24,642 bases of DNA, taken from the IMG/VR virus record IMGVR_UViG_3300005265_000317, positions 1 to 24,642 of that record. The stretch is one strand, 5' to 3'. The DNA is from a virus. Position numbers and translations under genes: made by a program. Shown here in pieces: positions 6,597-11,390 of this stretch. Position 1 is the stretch's first letter. Each line of letters opens with the position of its first letter. A model generated the notes under the pieces. The model was not told the origin of the DNA. It made no database searches and saw only the letters and a list, made by a program, of their open reading frames with translations.

Positions 6597-7352
6597 ATGG
6601 AACAAGTAGAAACAAATTTATCAGACATGATTAGACAAGATGAACCACCGGTATTTGAAACATCGAATTTGGACTTACCGGAAGATACAACAGAAGTAAT
6701 ATCAGAGGATACAACAGAAGCTGTAGAAGAAGCCCAAGCGGAAGCAATTTCAATTACTCCTCTTAATACATGGTTTGAATCTAATGCGGAATCATTTCAA
6801 AATGTCAATCGAGTTCAGGTTGAAATTCGTGGAGTTGATCCCTCAAAAACTTTGATAATGGCAGTACTTGATGATCAAGGTGAAGTTAACGGCCATCCAA
6901 GCAGAGACCTTCAACTTTTCAAAAATGCTGACATTCAGCCGGTATTGAATATTCCTGCAGTTGATATGCAGATTTATAACAATGGATTCAGAATTATTTC
7001 ATCTTATGATGATAACATTATTATTAAATCTTACGGTGTAAGAACAGGGCTTATCTGTGTATTCTGTAACAACATTGCCGGAAAAGCGATTCCTTATAAG
7101 GTCATAAAAGCAAAGAAAAAAGATGAAGTTGTTGAAGTTTCTCGATTAGATGCAGCAGCAGTTGCCATCAAACTATCTCAAGATGCTGACCTGGAAGCAT
7201 TACAATTACTTTATAAACAAAGTAGTAAAGTAATTGAAGATATGACTACAAATCAAACAGTGGTTGATTGGTTATTAGAACGCCAGAACGAAGTAACGGA
7301 TATCAACCATCATCTACAAATTGATAATGTTATTATAAACATTCTGTCATAA
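6597..7352 (+). CDS. Unknown 251-aa protein with acidic N-terminal tail
   Basis: A strong SD (AAAGGAG) precedes the ATG at 6597. The first 50 or so residues are acidic and low-complexity, with a short tandem repeat EDTTEVIS/EDTTEAVE encoded by repeated GATACAACAGAAG units (about 6680-6720). From residue about 55 the protein becomes globular, with alternating beta-like stretches (RVQVEIRGV, TLIMAVLDD, NIIIKSYGV, LICVFCNN) and a helical C-terminal third (DADLEALQLLYKQSSKVIED). I recognise no domain. An acidic disordered tail on a beta-rich body is common in phage virion or DNA-mimic-like proteins, but there is no direct evidence for either. The gene ends just before a structured intergenic element. 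Confidence 0.8.
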   Translation: MEQVETNLSDMIRQDEPPVFETSNLDLPEDTTEVISEDTTEAVEEAQAEAISITPLNTWFESNAESFQNVNRVQVEIRGVDPSKTLIMAVLDDQGEVNGHPSRDLQLFKNADIQPVLNIPAVDMQIYNNGFRIISSYDDNIIIKSYGVRTGLICVFCNNIAGKAIPYKVIKAKKKDEVVEVSRLDAAAVAIKLSQDADLEALQLLYKQSSKVIEDMTTNQTVVDWLLERQNEVTDINHHLQIDNVIINILS

Positions 7353-7359
7353 ATGATTT

Positions 7360-7425
7360 GGGATGGGCGGAATATGTTTAGTTAACCCATATACTAAACA
7401 ACACAGGCCTTATTCCGTTCATCCC
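7360..7425 (+). other. Intergenic structured RNA element A
   Basis: Within the 87-nt gap between two + strand genes, GGGATGGGCGGAATA (7360-7374) pairs with TATTCCGTTCATCCC (7411-7425): 15 pairs, of which two are G·U. Stacked directly inside, TGTTTAGT (7375-7382) pairs perfectly with ACTAAACA (7393-7400) around a 10-nt loop, leaving a 10-nt one-sided bulge (7401-7410). The element ends 14 nt before the ATG at 7440, next to a weak SD (CAGG). No long T-run follows, so a terminator is less likely than a translation-control or mRNA-processing structure. Confidence 0.6.
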
Positions 7426-7439
7426 CTTTCAGGTTAATT

Positions 7440-8171
7440 ATGAAAATAAATCCAAATTTAAAATTAGTGTTAAAAGATTTATATTTATATGATATTGAAG
7501 CATGTCATTATAATATAGTGAAAAAAATGGGATTGGATGTTTCCAATTTGGATGAGAATGATAAGCTCGATAGAAATATTGAAATTGGTAAAATGATGAG
7601 AAAGAATCCTAGATTAACATCAGTTATAAGAAATACAACTCGTTCTATTATTGATGAATACATAAGAAGAAATGATATTAAAGATGATGAAATTGTTATT
7701 AGACAATATGATGGTATGATACTGACCAGGGGTTTACAAGAAACTAATGTTGGACAGCTTCCTTTAAATCGTAGAAGATTTTATCAAGTCTTTATTGCTT
7801 CTATTGATAGATCAAAATATATATCATTGGATAGTGCGGAAAAAACTTCCATTAAAGGAATACCATTTAGATATCCTCATATAGACGCTGTTTATCAAAA
7901 AATATGTAAGTTAAATTTTGGAAAGAAGGGTGCTATATTCAGAGGATTGCAAAATATAAAAGATGCTTTCTTGAACTCAAATGATTCTAAATTATTCGGA
8001 GTTCCTTTAAAAAACGGGAAATTTAACATCTTTCTTAAACGATATGGAGAAATGCAGGTATCTGAACAAACATTAAAAATCATGGATACAGATGATATTG
8101 ATAAGAAAAGATATTTTGATTTCTACATTATACCGTTCACTAAAAGTATAACATATGAATTTGTGAGGTAA
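7440..8171 (+). CDS. Unknown 243-aa protein with faint polymerase-palm-like motifs
   Basis: The function is not established. Three blocks stand out: YLYDIEACHYNI (15-26), DRNIEIGKMMRKNPRLTSVI (44-63), and EIVIRQYDGMIL (84-95), preceded by a long helix (RNTTRSIIDEYIRR). Their order and spacing loosely recall motifs A, B and C of DNA polymerase palms, with D18 and D91 as possible metal ligands. At 243 aa it is far too short for a full polymerase and lacks recognisable fingers or exonuclease domains. The C-terminal part (IKGIPFRYPHIDAVYQKI) is unplaced. The start is ATG 7440, just after structured element A, with a weak SD. The next gene begins three bases after its stop with a good SD (GAGG). 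An unrelated fold with chance similarity is quite possible. Confidence 0.75.
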   Translation: MKINPNLKLVLKDLYLYDIEACHYNIVKKMGLDVSNLDENDKLDRNIEIGKMMRKNPRLTSVIRNTTRSIIDEYIRRNDIKDDEIVIRQYDGMILTRGLQETNVGQLPLNRRRFYQVFIASIDRSKYISLDSAEKTSIKGIPFRYPHIDAVYQKICKLNFGKKGAIFRGLQNIKDAFLNSNDSKLFGVPLKNGKFNIFLKRYGEMQVSEQTLKIMDTDDIDKKRYFDFYIIPFTKSITYEFVR

Positions 8172-8174
8172 TAA

Positions 8175-8762
8175 ATGGAAAAAACAATATTAAACATTGC
8201 AGCAGGAAAATTTGAACCGATAGGAATAAGTCAAGAAGAAACAGTATTTTTAGTTAATTTAGATATTATGTATTATGATCATACTGATGTAGCAGTCATT
8301 GAAAAAGAATATGATGACTGGACACAACTTCGAGATAAAATATTTTACTGTGCTGAAGATGCAGTTACATTTATGGAAAGAACAAGAATGATGTTTGATA
8401 AAGTATGCATATATAGATTTCTAGAACATGTTTCATTTACAAACGTTCAATATTTTATATATCTTTTATCTACAATTACTACTATAGGATCATGGCTTGA
8501 TATTATAGTTCCCAACTATAAAATATTAGCTCAAAATATTTTAGATGAGAATATAAATGATGTAGATTTCGAGTCTAAAAATATTGAACTAACAACAGAA
8601 CTTCTAAACGAACCATCATGCCCACATGCATCTATATGGACACCAGCTAGAGCCAGACATTTCTTTGGATTAGAAGGAAGATTCAGGGTCGAAGATGTAA
8701 TTGAGAATTATGAATTTGATGGTCGGAATATATATATGAGATTCTGGGCAAAGAGAATATGA
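8175..8762 (+). CDS. Degenerate class I SAM-methyltransferase-like protein
   Basis: The 195-aa product resembles the Rossmann-fold methyltransferase core. An N-terminal ILNIAAGKFEPI (5-16) sits where the SAM-binding motif I should be, with only one of the usual glycines. FDKVCIYRFLEHV (about 74-86) matches the motif around LEH that is common in these enzymes, followed by a helix and a strand-turn DIIVPNYK (about 109-116), like the VPN after motif VI. Relatives of this type in large phages are often annotated as methyltransferases without a known substrate. Loss of glycines in motif I casts doubt on activity. The SD GAGG precedes the ATG by six bases, and the stop overlaps the next start. Confidence 0.6.
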   Translation: MEKTILNIAAGKFEPIGISQEETVFLVNLDIMYYDHTDVAVIEKEYDDWTQLRDKIFYCAEDAVTFMERTRMMFDKVCIYRFLEHVSFTNVQYFIYLLSTITTIGSWLDIIVPNYKILAQNILDENINDVDFESKNIELTTELLNEPSCPHASIWTPARARHFFGLEGRFRVEDVIENYEFDGRNIYMRFWAKRI

Positions 8763-9118
8763 TACTACATGCAAAAGCAAGCGATCATGGCGGTGGACTC
8801 CATATATCAAGACCTACCAGGAGAGAAAAGTTATATTATTCTGAACTAGCGATCTTTGTTTATCCTAATGGAAGAGTTGAAATAGGTAAAAACAGGAATG
8901 GTAACCTTGGTGATGCTACATTGGAAGATGCTATACATCACTTTTCAATGATACTAGCAAAACTTAAATTGAAAGATACAAACCTTGATATGTTTAAAGA
9001 AGGACTATATAAACTCCTTCATGAAAAAATAACAAATACCTTGAAAGGGGATTATTATGAGAGAACCATTTGCTCAGAGAGCGCAGGAGATGGGTCTAAC
9101 TGTAATAGGAGCACATAA
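8759..9118 (+). CDS. Small unknown 119-aa protein
   Basis: The start overlaps the preceding stop by four bases. Residues about 28-48 form a short beta-rich module (LAIFVYPNGRVEIGKNRNGN) followed by helices. The last 20 residues (YYERTICSESAGDGSNCNRS) are read from the 62-nt overlap with the next gene, which has the stronger SD (AAAGGGG) and a well-supported start at 9057. The C-terminal tail therefore looks like an accidental extension. No family is recognised. Confidence 0.6.
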   Translation: MILHAKASDHGGGLHISRPTRREKLYYSELAIFVYPNGRVEIGKNRNGNLGDATLEDAIHHFSMILAKLKLKDTNLDMFKEGLYKLLHEKITNTLKGDYYERTICSESAGDGSNCNRST

Positions 9119-9971
9119 AGGTCTATTTACATATGAGGATCAATATTCTCAGCTTGTTTATAGACAATTATACACAAGTTTTATAAATATCAATGAAGAA
9201 GATAGACATGAAACCGATGGAAGTCCGACTCCACTCATTGCCATTTATACAAGACCCACAGCAGACGTAGATTTTAAATATGTTGGATATGTATCAGATT
9301 TTTATCAATTTATTGGAAACAATGTATTATGTCAACGGGTTAGAGATTCAGTTCAGGCAGTTGGTATGCCAATTTTAACTGAAAATACAATAATGAGCTG
9401 GGATCATACAAGGATGAGAAATGAAATCATTATTCAAAGCAGTCAGAACCACGCCCAAGCGGGGGATATTCTACCCGTTATGGTTGTTAATAATAGCTAT
9501 AACGGAACTCGCGCTGCTACCATCGCTTTTGGTCTCGCTATGGAGTATAACAATAATAGGACTGTTTTCGCTTTTTCTCTTGGTGAAATGCGCCAGGTTC
9601 ATATTCAAAGCGCCACAACAGAAATGCGATCAGCAATAACATCCTACATGCAAGTGTTTTCAGAAAATATTGCTGATATGATAAGCCAAAGCTTCAACAG
9701 CACAGTAACAGAAGAGGATATGATGACCCTGTTAGATGTTATTGATCAATATGGCCGAAAGAGAAGAGATGCAATCTCAACTCTATTAGCAGAGATTCAA
9801 CCTGCTGAAGCTGGGCTTCCTTCAGCTTGGCAGATATTCTTAGCTATTGTAAGATATAGTAGTTTCGAACCGAATCTCAATATGAAAAGATTACTGGAGA
9901 ACGCAGCAGAAAGCGTCCTGGTAATCCCAAGAAGGATGCATGAAGTCCTAGATGAACTTCAAACATCATAA
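9057..9971 (+). CDS. DUF932-like phage protein
   Basis: This 304-aa protein is probably related to the DUF932 phage/plasmid family. The supporting features are a central YVSDFYQFIGNN (about 77-88), the block GDILPVMVVNNSYNGTRAAT (about 137-156) that recalls the family's NSxDG/A-type segment, and a downstream helical region. Biochemical function is unknown for the family. The SD AAAGGGG lies a few bases before the ATG. The gene is followed by a 156-nt structured gap and ends the block preceding the virion genes. Family placement rests on motif memory and is moderate; the gene itself is secure. Confidence 0.6.
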   Translation: MREPFAQRAQEMGLTVIGAHKGLFTYEDQYSQLVYRQLYTSFININEEDRHETDGSPTPLIAIYTRPTADVDFKYVGYVSDFYQFIGNNVLCQRVRDSVQAVGMPILTENTIMSWDHTRMRNEIIIQSSQNHAQAGDILPVMVVNNSYNGTRAATIAFGLAMEYNNNRTVFAFSLGEMRQVHIQSATTEMRSAITSYMQVFSENIADMISQSFNSTVTEEDMMTLLDVIDQYGRKRRDAISTLLAEIQPAEAGLPSAWQIFLAIVRYSSFEPNLNMKRLLENAAESVLVIPRRMHEVLDELQTS

Positions 9972-9992
9972 GGAATCCGACATAAGATTCCT
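9971..9992 (+). other. Hairpin directly after the DUF932-like gene
   Basis: AGGAATC (9971-9977) pairs perfectly with GATTCCT (9986-9992) around an 8-nt loop. It begins on the last base of the stop codon of the upstream gene and is followed by CCCTTTCG rather than a clean T-run. It could protect the 3' end of the upstream message or act as a weak terminator. Confidence 0.45.
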
Positions 9993-10002
9993 CCCTTTCG
10001 TA

Positions 10003-10016
10003 CCGACGAAAGTCGG
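10003..10016 (+). other. Short hairpin with a GAAA (GNRA) tetraloop
   Basis: CCGAC (10003-10007) and GTCGG (10012-10016) enclose the loop GAAA, an especially stable RNA tetraloop class. It is the middle of three hairpins in the 156-nt gap 9972-10127. Four G-tracts (10015-10017, 10025-10027, 10033-10037, 10050-10052) begin at its 3' arm, an unusual concentration of G in this AT-rich window. Confidence 0.5.
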
Positions 10017-10032
10017 GATTGATTGGGTGATT

Positions 10033-10100
10033 GGGGGATAATATCGACTGGGTTGATCGCCAGTTATTAGTATACATTATTCCCCTTTCACTTTTTTTTT
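10033..10100 (+). terminator. Branched-stem terminator-like element B
   Basis: GGGGGATAAT (10033-10042) pairs with ATTATTCCCC (10076-10085): ten pairs with one G·U. Inside it ACTGG (10047-10051) pairs with CCAGT (10060-10064) around an 8-nt loop. The 3' arm is followed by TTTCA, C and nine T (10092-10100), the layout of an intrinsic terminator, though the T-run starts six bases after the stem. It separates the DUF932-like gene from the hub gene. The 3' flank CCCCTTTCA also follows element A at 7422-7430. Confidence 0.5.
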
Positions 10101-10127
10101 GGAACAAAATATAAAAAGGAATAGAGA

Positions 10128-11390
10128 ATGGCATCAAATAGTCCGTTGTTAAGTTATTGGCATCCAGATATAACATATGATTTTACGTTAAGAATAGGTG
10201 AATCCGATTACTCAACCGATTTAGTAAAAGTTGAAATTAGATCCGGTGTTAATTTACCATATCAGCATATATTTCTTGATATTTTCATGGATCCAAGAGA
10301 TATTTTATCAGAGCAATTATTTGGACAGCAACCTTTAAAACTTATAATAAGATTAAAAGGAAAAGAAACAGTAGGATTTGGAGATGATATTAATTTTGAT
10401 TTAATATACATTAATGCCGAAGGAGAATATGCTCCAGCCCAACAAAGTTATCTTACTGATCAATGGGAACGATCAATAGTAAGATTAAAAACATTATGTT
10501 CAAAACCATATCAAACAATGTCAAGTATGGTAAATGAAGTCTATTTCAATTCAACTCCATATAATATAATTACAAATTTAATAAATAACAATACAGATGC
10601 AGAATTAAAATATGATCCAACGGGGCAAAGCAACCTTACAATTGATCAGTTATTAATACCTCCTACTACTATATATGGAGTAGTGAAATATTTGAACAGA
10701 ACATATGGAGTTTTTAATGGCCCTCTTGGCTTTCATTGTTCATTTGATAACAAAGTTAAGGTACAAAATTTAGCAAGTAAAGTAAAAGATGCACAGAAAT
10801 TTACCTTATATTTATTAGCTACAGATAGACAAAATGAAGAAGATATATATAAAGGTAATGATACCAAAGATACTTCGTTTTTCTATACAAAATCAGCAGT
10901 TAGTAGTGCATATCAAGGAAATTCTGTTTTTTCTACGGCTGCCCCAATTAGAAAATATATTGTAAAACCAAGTAATACACTCTACCAAAATATTGATATT
11001 AACACTGAATCATTTGCAAAAAAATATGGAATTATTGAAAAAAATAATCCATCTATATATTACAACAAAGAAACAATAAATACGAGTAAAAGAATTTCAT
11101 ATCATAAAGATCAGACTGGATATAACAGCGATCAAACATTTATAAATTCAACATTATCTCCATATCTTGTAGACATGGCAACATTAGAAGCAGATATAGA
11201 AGGAAATCTGCCTGTATTAAATCTCATGGAAGTTGGAGAACATGTTAAAGTAGTTAGCCAAGTTGATGATCATCTTAAATTAGGCGGATCATATATATTA
11301 AAAGGAAGCAGCATTCAATTTATGAAAGCAACTAGTTGGGAAGCGAACGCAAAGATTTTTATGTCAAGAACGAATATTGCGATGCAATAA
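10128..11390 (+). CDS. Baseplate hub protein, gp27/gpD-like
   Basis: The 420-aa protein has the features of the late-control-D/gp27 hub fold that sits at the centre of a contractile baseplate and receives the tail tube. The N-terminal beta domain contains SDYSTDLVKVEIRSGVNLPY and FLDIFMDPRDIL. A central section has a helix-strand unit typical of hub domain II (NSTPYNIITNLINN, then GVVKYLNRTYGVF and GPLGFHCSFDNKVKV). The C-terminal part has LMEVGEHVKVVSQVDDHLKLGG followed by strands, like the small beta-barrel end of these proteins. SD AAGGA precedes the ATG. Neighbours (terminase, tape measure, gp48/54-like) agree. No lysozyme domain is attached. Assignment is by pattern, not alignment. Confidence 0.65.
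   Translation: MASNSPLLSYWHPDITYDFTLRIGESDYSTDLVKVEIRSGVNLPYQHIFLDIFMDPRDILSEQLFGQQPLKLIIRLKGKETVGFGDDINFDLIYINAEGEYAPAQQSYLTDQWERSIVRLKTLCSKPYQTMSSMVNEVYFNSTPYNIITNLINNNTDAELKYDPTGQSNLTIDQLLIPPTTIYGVVKYLNRTYGVFNGPLGFHCSFDNKVKVQNLASKVKDAQKFTLYLLATDRQNEEDIYKGNDTKDTSFFYTKSAVSSAYQGNSVFSTAAPIRKYIVKPSNTLYQNIDINTESFAKKYGIIEKNNPSIYYNKETINTSKRISYHKDQTGYNSDQTFINSTLSPYLVDMATLEADIEGNLPVLNLMEVGEHVKVVSQVDDHLKLGGSYILKGSSIQFMKATSWEANAKIFMSRTNIAMQ

Follow-up and report, generated by a model that had tools for sequence, protein, structure and literature searches.

Two intergenic hairpins of similar shape, elements A and B, stand before different genes in one stretch of phage DNA, raising the question of whether they are copies of a single RNA device and what each of them does. 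The stretch analyzed here (the window) is the whole of IMG/VR record IMGVR_UViG_3300005265_000317, 24,642 bases in length. It is a fragment of a large phage carrying the genes for an RNA polymerase beta-like protein, a folE2-type GTP cyclohydrolase, and the large terminase, and its relatives are large phages, most of them uncultured. The phages collection, searched with ORFs 243 and 304, contained no matching phage, and we found no earlier description of the junction between ORF 251 and ORF 243, where element A resides, in the open-access literature searched. No Rfam match at or above a gathering threshold was detected in the window and nine related loci.

Two hairpins in the window and their folds

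Element A starts 7 nt after the stop codon of ORF 251, for which no match was found in Pfam or PHROG. The features of this region are as follows.

6597-7352, + strand: ORF 251, the gene upstream of element A, syntenic in the relatives
7360-7425, + strand: element A, a hairpin between ORF 251 and ORF 243, identified by its z-score, covariation, and relatives
7360-7374 paired with 7411-7425, + strand: P1, the outer stem of element A, 15 bp
7375-7400, + strand: P2, the inner hairpin of element A, at the 5' side of the outer stem
7401-7410, + strand: the one-sided bulge of element A, ACACAGGCCT, 10 nt, on the 3' side
7431-7434, + strand: Shine-Dalgarno sequence (SD) AGGT, 3' of the hairpin and 5 nt before the ATG of ORF 243
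7440-8171, + strand: ORF 243, 243 aa, with a predicted miniature family-B DNA-polymerase fold (pLDDT 94.0)

The fold of element A is far outside chance: the MFE of positions 7345-7445 was -34.8 kcal/mol (z -5.10), and none of 200 shuffles was equally good. The outer stem is followed by CCCCTTTCA. No T-run was found directly after the stem, where the letters are CCCCTTTCAGG, and the terminator scanner did not list the site either. A small ORF within the hairpin was considered and dropped, as neither its length nor its frame appeared conserved by eye. The letters TAAC, those of the gp43 operator loop, occur in the inner loop (7383-7386, + strand) and are not kept in the clade of the window.

Element B lies between ORFs 304 and 420, with the following features.

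9057-9971, + strand: ORF 304, the gene that element B is predicted to terminate
10033-10085, + strand: element B, a stem with an inner hairpin, a predicted intrinsic terminator judging from its fold and relatives
10092-10100, + strand: T9 run after element B
10101-10116, + strand: promoter-like motif GGAACAAAATATAAAA, conserved in the relatives; the only exact copy in the window
10128-11390, + strand: ORF 420, the gene 3' of element B

The outer stem of element B comprises 10 bp (10033-10042/10076-10085) and encloses an inner hairpin (ACTGG..CCAGT) and a 3' bulge of about 11 nt, followed by CCCCTTTCA. Both elements fold as the preliminary description had drawn them, with an outer stem, an inner hairpin at its 5' side, a one-sided bulge on the 3' side, and the CCCCTTTCA flank. 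The fold of element B alone is weaker than that with its flanks: positions 9972-10110 gave a z of -3.63, and the 71-nt stretch alone gave -1.77, with 10 of 200 shuffles equally good.

In the relatives read, a stem and a T-run were found at the same site 3' of the ORF 304 homologue, followed by GGAACAAAATATAAAA or a variant of it. Most of them have a short plain loop there, and the inner hairpin and bulge, once proposed to be recurrent, are mostly missing; an inner hairpin with the loop TTGATC or similar was found in the window, L011, L025, and L034, and more loosely in L031. The inner architecture of element B is lineage-specific. As looked for in an intrinsic terminator, the stem of element B is directly followed by the T-run, and the element was omitted by a consensus terminator scanner with a loop limit of 8 nt. 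Judging from the stem and T-run in the window and the relatives, element B is best described as a predicted ordinary intrinsic (Rho-independent) terminator, and GGAACAAAATATAAAA behind it is perhaps a phage promoter. The alignment of the B module gave weak consensus support, and a search with a short B-module pattern was set aside as too unspecific.

Conservation of element A and a module shared by two sites

Element A is a conserved, covarying RNA hairpin with a conserved one-sided bulge. The clade of the window (the window, L011/L012, L013/L014, L015, and L016; five distinct sequences) keeps P1 and the 3'-side bulge, while P2 varies in sequence and length. Across the five distinct sequences, 97.3% of the cells are paired versus 40-51% in slid versions, two-sided changes were found at 11 of the 22 pairs, and the covariation score was reached by none of 500 shuffles. 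The bulge has the consensus ACACAGGCCY, and 7 of its 10 columns are invariant in the five relatives. For comparison, the same five sequences are invariant at 6 of 40 fourfold-degenerate ORF 243 sites (binomial 1.3e-4, with columns treated as independent). Conservation of a structured RNA in relatives, which had been set beforehand as the refutation test, was thereby borne out. At junction A of two other lineages, ACACAGGCCC / AAACAGGCCC occurs on the 5' side of the stem (L028, position 6792; L061, position 3188), possibly as a permuted form of the bulge seen in the window.

The covariance scan for further copies of element A covered 50 of the 70-odd records (up to 312 kb), and the model matched in four of the 50, all of the window clade and all at the ORF 251-243 junction, with one match per record and no further copies. 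The remaining matches were reverse-strand images of these same sites and a marginal one (E 0.075) in the 312-kb record. A pattern scan of IMG/VR returned seven stretches, of which three were known relatives and four were chance matches without the neighbouring genes. As for the flank, CCCCTTTCA has three exact copies in the window (7423, + strand; 9042, - strand; 10082, + strand), the one at 9042 being unrelated. It is retained at A only by the nearest relatives (L003/L004), and none of the relatives read has it at B; the common flank thus seems to reflect the C-rich end of a stem and coincidence.

A structured RNA module termed here type III (GGATGTATGCTTCGGACC..GGGACAAGCGAGTGCC) is common to two different intergenic hairpins. 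Some relatives (L025, L029, L033, L037, and L061) have it within the hairpin at junction A and others (L021, L044, L068, and L086) within terminator B, so that both junctions are able to carry the same insert. The module had no Rfam match in those of its loci that were searched. Its DNA identity is 79-92% in several pairs of which the ORF 243 proteins are 51-60% identical, and mostly 70-77% in the pairs involving L037 and L025. These identities suggest that the module likely spread by exchange among lineages and between the two sites, although its similarity may also be due to strong selection. The type III pattern matched six stretches in IMG/VR, five of them in this group and one (L083) by chance, and two chance matches were obtained from genome_contigs.

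The preliminary description took elements A and B for one recurrent device. The similarity of the two drawn shapes and the presence of the type III module at both junctions in relatives are consistent with a single RNA family, but the model of element A assigns B 8.2 bits (E 7.4) versus 103.5 bits for A, the type III model assigns B 9.8 bits (E 0.92), and the interior of B is lineage-specific. We consider a single family highly improbable.

Shine-Dalgarno position at the ORF 251-243 junction

Homology to ORF 243 collected 70 loci with 59 distinct ORF 251-243 gaps. The hairpin was present in 51 of the 59; the genes overlap in L069, and seven had no recognised gap. The hairpin core ranges from 20 to about 90 nt, and its sequence and interior are highly variable across the relatives. 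A z below -3 was obtained for 45 of the 51 hairpin gaps versus 3 of 39 other gaps (same-strand, 40-150 nt, without a T6 run); the z of L061 (-0.6) reflects truncation of its gap at an internal stop codon. Some gaps hold more than one structure. The gap of L061 (2960-3250) spans about 300 nt and contains two hairpins, one of them type III, with a large structure in between, that of L033 contains two tandem hairpins, and L038 carries an extra 45-48 nt or so before ORF 243, with its own hairpin and AACCT repeats at the edges, which is missing in the close relative L053.

The 51 gaps fall into three states according to the position of the SD as predicted from the sequence. In 34 (U state; 31 scored automatically, and L032, L061, and L067 assigned by eye), the sole SD lies 5' of the hairpin, typically as a TAAGGAG that overlaps with the ORF 251 stop, and there is no SD between the hairpin and the ATG. 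The SD is 3' of the hairpin in 10 gaps including the window (D state), and seven hairpin gaps have no recognisable SD (N state). None was scored with an SD on both sides. On the U contigs, an SD within -22 to -4 was found for 248 of 260 other genes versus 1 of 34 ORF 243 genes (a 4-nt match). The SD-hairpin-ATG arrangement is nearly exclusive to the ORF 243 start, which accounts for 30 of the 33 cases among 1340 candidate starts. When the hairpin is excised in silico, the SD-AUG spacing in the 31 automatically scored U gaps has a median of 12 and is 7-15 nt in 28; the larger values in L030 (17), L051 (20), and L045 (31) were obtained where the scored core sat further in. The U relatives thus share three sequence features with the split ribosome-binding sites (RBSs) of the T4 gene 25/38 type, namely a hairpin between SD and AUG, no nearer SD, and a workable spacing when the hairpin is taken as folded. 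The window does not belong to this type, as its AGGT is 3', not 5', of the hairpin, and bridging of SD and AUG is thus inapplicable to it.

In the ORF 243 tree, rooted at the midpoint, the D rows were placed among U rows in two separate supported groups. One consists of the five window-clade members and the other of five L017-clade rows, a clade that also contains two N rows. The simplest reading is that the SD shifted 3' twice with the hairpin retained, a direction that we infer, and the U arrangement is probably ancestral. The interiors of the junction A hairpins change rapidly and do not track the ORF 243 tree.

The terminator or processing signal proposed earlier was right in part: a terminator fits element B, and a processing signal for element A found no support. 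Element A sits at the translation start of ORF 243, which argues for a role in initiation rather than in processing. It could instead be a 3'-end or processing hairpin of the ORF 251 mRNA (an RNase III site or an exonuclease block) with no part in initiation, for which the location of the hairpin close behind the ORF 251 stop codon in most of the 51 gaps speaks. However, 34 of the 51 hairpins lie between the only SD and the AUG, where cleavage would remove the SD, and we regard this explanation as doubtful.

The ORF 243 product, the role of element A, and known systems

ORF 243 is predicted, with high confidence for the fold, to encode a very small family-B DNA-polymerase core. The structure model reached a mean pLDDT of 94.0 with 52 sequences and 42.1 with 8 sequences. 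The top PDB matches in Foldseek were family-B DNA polymerases (E 7.6e-6), and VIA-align aligned 238 of the 243 residues with RB69 DNA polymerase (gp43) at a Z of 12.5 and an rmsd of 3.3; herpesvirus helicase-primase subunits gave a Z of 12.8. Aspartates 18 and 91 are invariant and represent the putative catalytic pair. No well-fitting Pfam family was found, and the protein matches PHROG 21037, which carries no function. Of ten records searched for other polymerases, the three longest (223, 248, and 312 kb) also have a full-size family-B gene each, and none has one of family A. ORF 243 clusters with terminase and structural genes, and the full-size family-B genes are elsewhere on the three longest records.

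We consider it probable that element A forms a structured translation-initiation region for ORF 243, and that element B, which is separate, terminates transcription 3' of ORF 304 and perhaps precedes a promoter. In the commonest arrangement, an SD at the ORF 251 stop codon is followed by a strong hairpin and the AUG, and folding of the hairpin would bring SD and AUG to a working distance (7-15 nt), much as described for genes 25 and 38 of T4. In the two D lineages, the hairpin appears to stay under selection with the SD 3' of it, so that it would have to act beyond bridging; tuning of ribosome loading, insulation from ORF 251, and protein binding through the bulge are the candidate roles. The conserved stem and bulge suggest that the hairpin still matters in the window. 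Counting against this reading, bridging does not apply to the window itself, the SD and ATG of the window are predicted to be mostly paired (unpaired, 0.10 and 0.06, respectively), seven relatives with the hairpin lack an SD, and no coevolution was found between the arms at the hairpin base (permutation p 0.97 for U and 0.42 for D). Sequestration of the SD by the arms flanking the hairpin base looked plausible on visual inspection but was rejected, as cognate arms pair no better than swapped ones.

Element A may alternatively be an autogenous operator, to which the ORF 243 protein would bind at its own RBS and repress translation as gp43 does. The ORF 243 model resembles gp43 of T4/RB69 in its polymerase part (238/243 residues and Z 12.5 against RB69). 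T4 gp43 binds a hairpin upstream of its own AUG, and crosslinking places the operator RNA of RB69 at the palm (PMC3014915). The retention of the hairpin with the SD on either side, the near-exclusivity of the arrangement to ORF 243, and the conserved bulge in the window clade would also agree with an operator. On the other hand, the hairpin sequences diverge greatly despite conservation of the protein, the UAAC loop of gp43 is not kept even within the window clade of five, and type III modules also reside in terminator B, away from ORF 243. We thus view an operator as possible but unlikely. Somewhat less likely still is a scheme in which intergenic hairpins provide an exchangeable slot, with RNA modules moving between lineages and between split RBS and terminator, and in which the ORF 243 product regulates itself via its own hairpin.

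One junction offers 34 natural versions of a split RBS with very different hairpins, together with two lineages having the SD on the other side, and this set suits testing how much RNA structure ribosomes tolerate between SD and AUG. The gene at this junction appears to encode a very small family-B polymerase core, a full-size one being present elsewhere on the longest records, and the structure at its start invites a test of autogenous control.

Among known systems, element B resembles an intrinsic terminator in its G+C-rich stem followed by T9 and differs in the inner hairpin held by the stem; element A differs in lacking a T-run. The T4/RB69 gene 43 operator is similar to the window in the order of hairpin, SD, and AUG before a gene for a family-B fold, T4 gp43 binding both the sequence at the SD and a hairpin some 40 nt before its own AUG (PMC3014915). 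Here, in contrast, the loop sequence varies, binding of the protein to the hairpin is putative, and the ORF 243 product is of 243 aa, the three longest records encoding a full-size family-B polymerase besides it. In T4, split RBSs are described for two genes, in which a hairpin shortens the SD-AUG spacing from 22 to 5 nt (gene 38) and from 27 to 11 nt (gene 25) (PMC3014915). As in those 'accommodated' sites, a hairpin parts SD from AUG and shortens the effective spacing, and the structure is kept in close relatives and missing from distant ones (PMC3014915). The junction studied here differs in the gene and the phage group, in the size of the hairpin cores (20 to about 90 nt) and their strongly varying interiors, and in two lineages, including the window, with the SD 3' of the hairpin. 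Altogether, the relatives probably possess a variant form of a known translation-initiation structure, the window is arranged differently, and element B is a predicted ordinary terminator.
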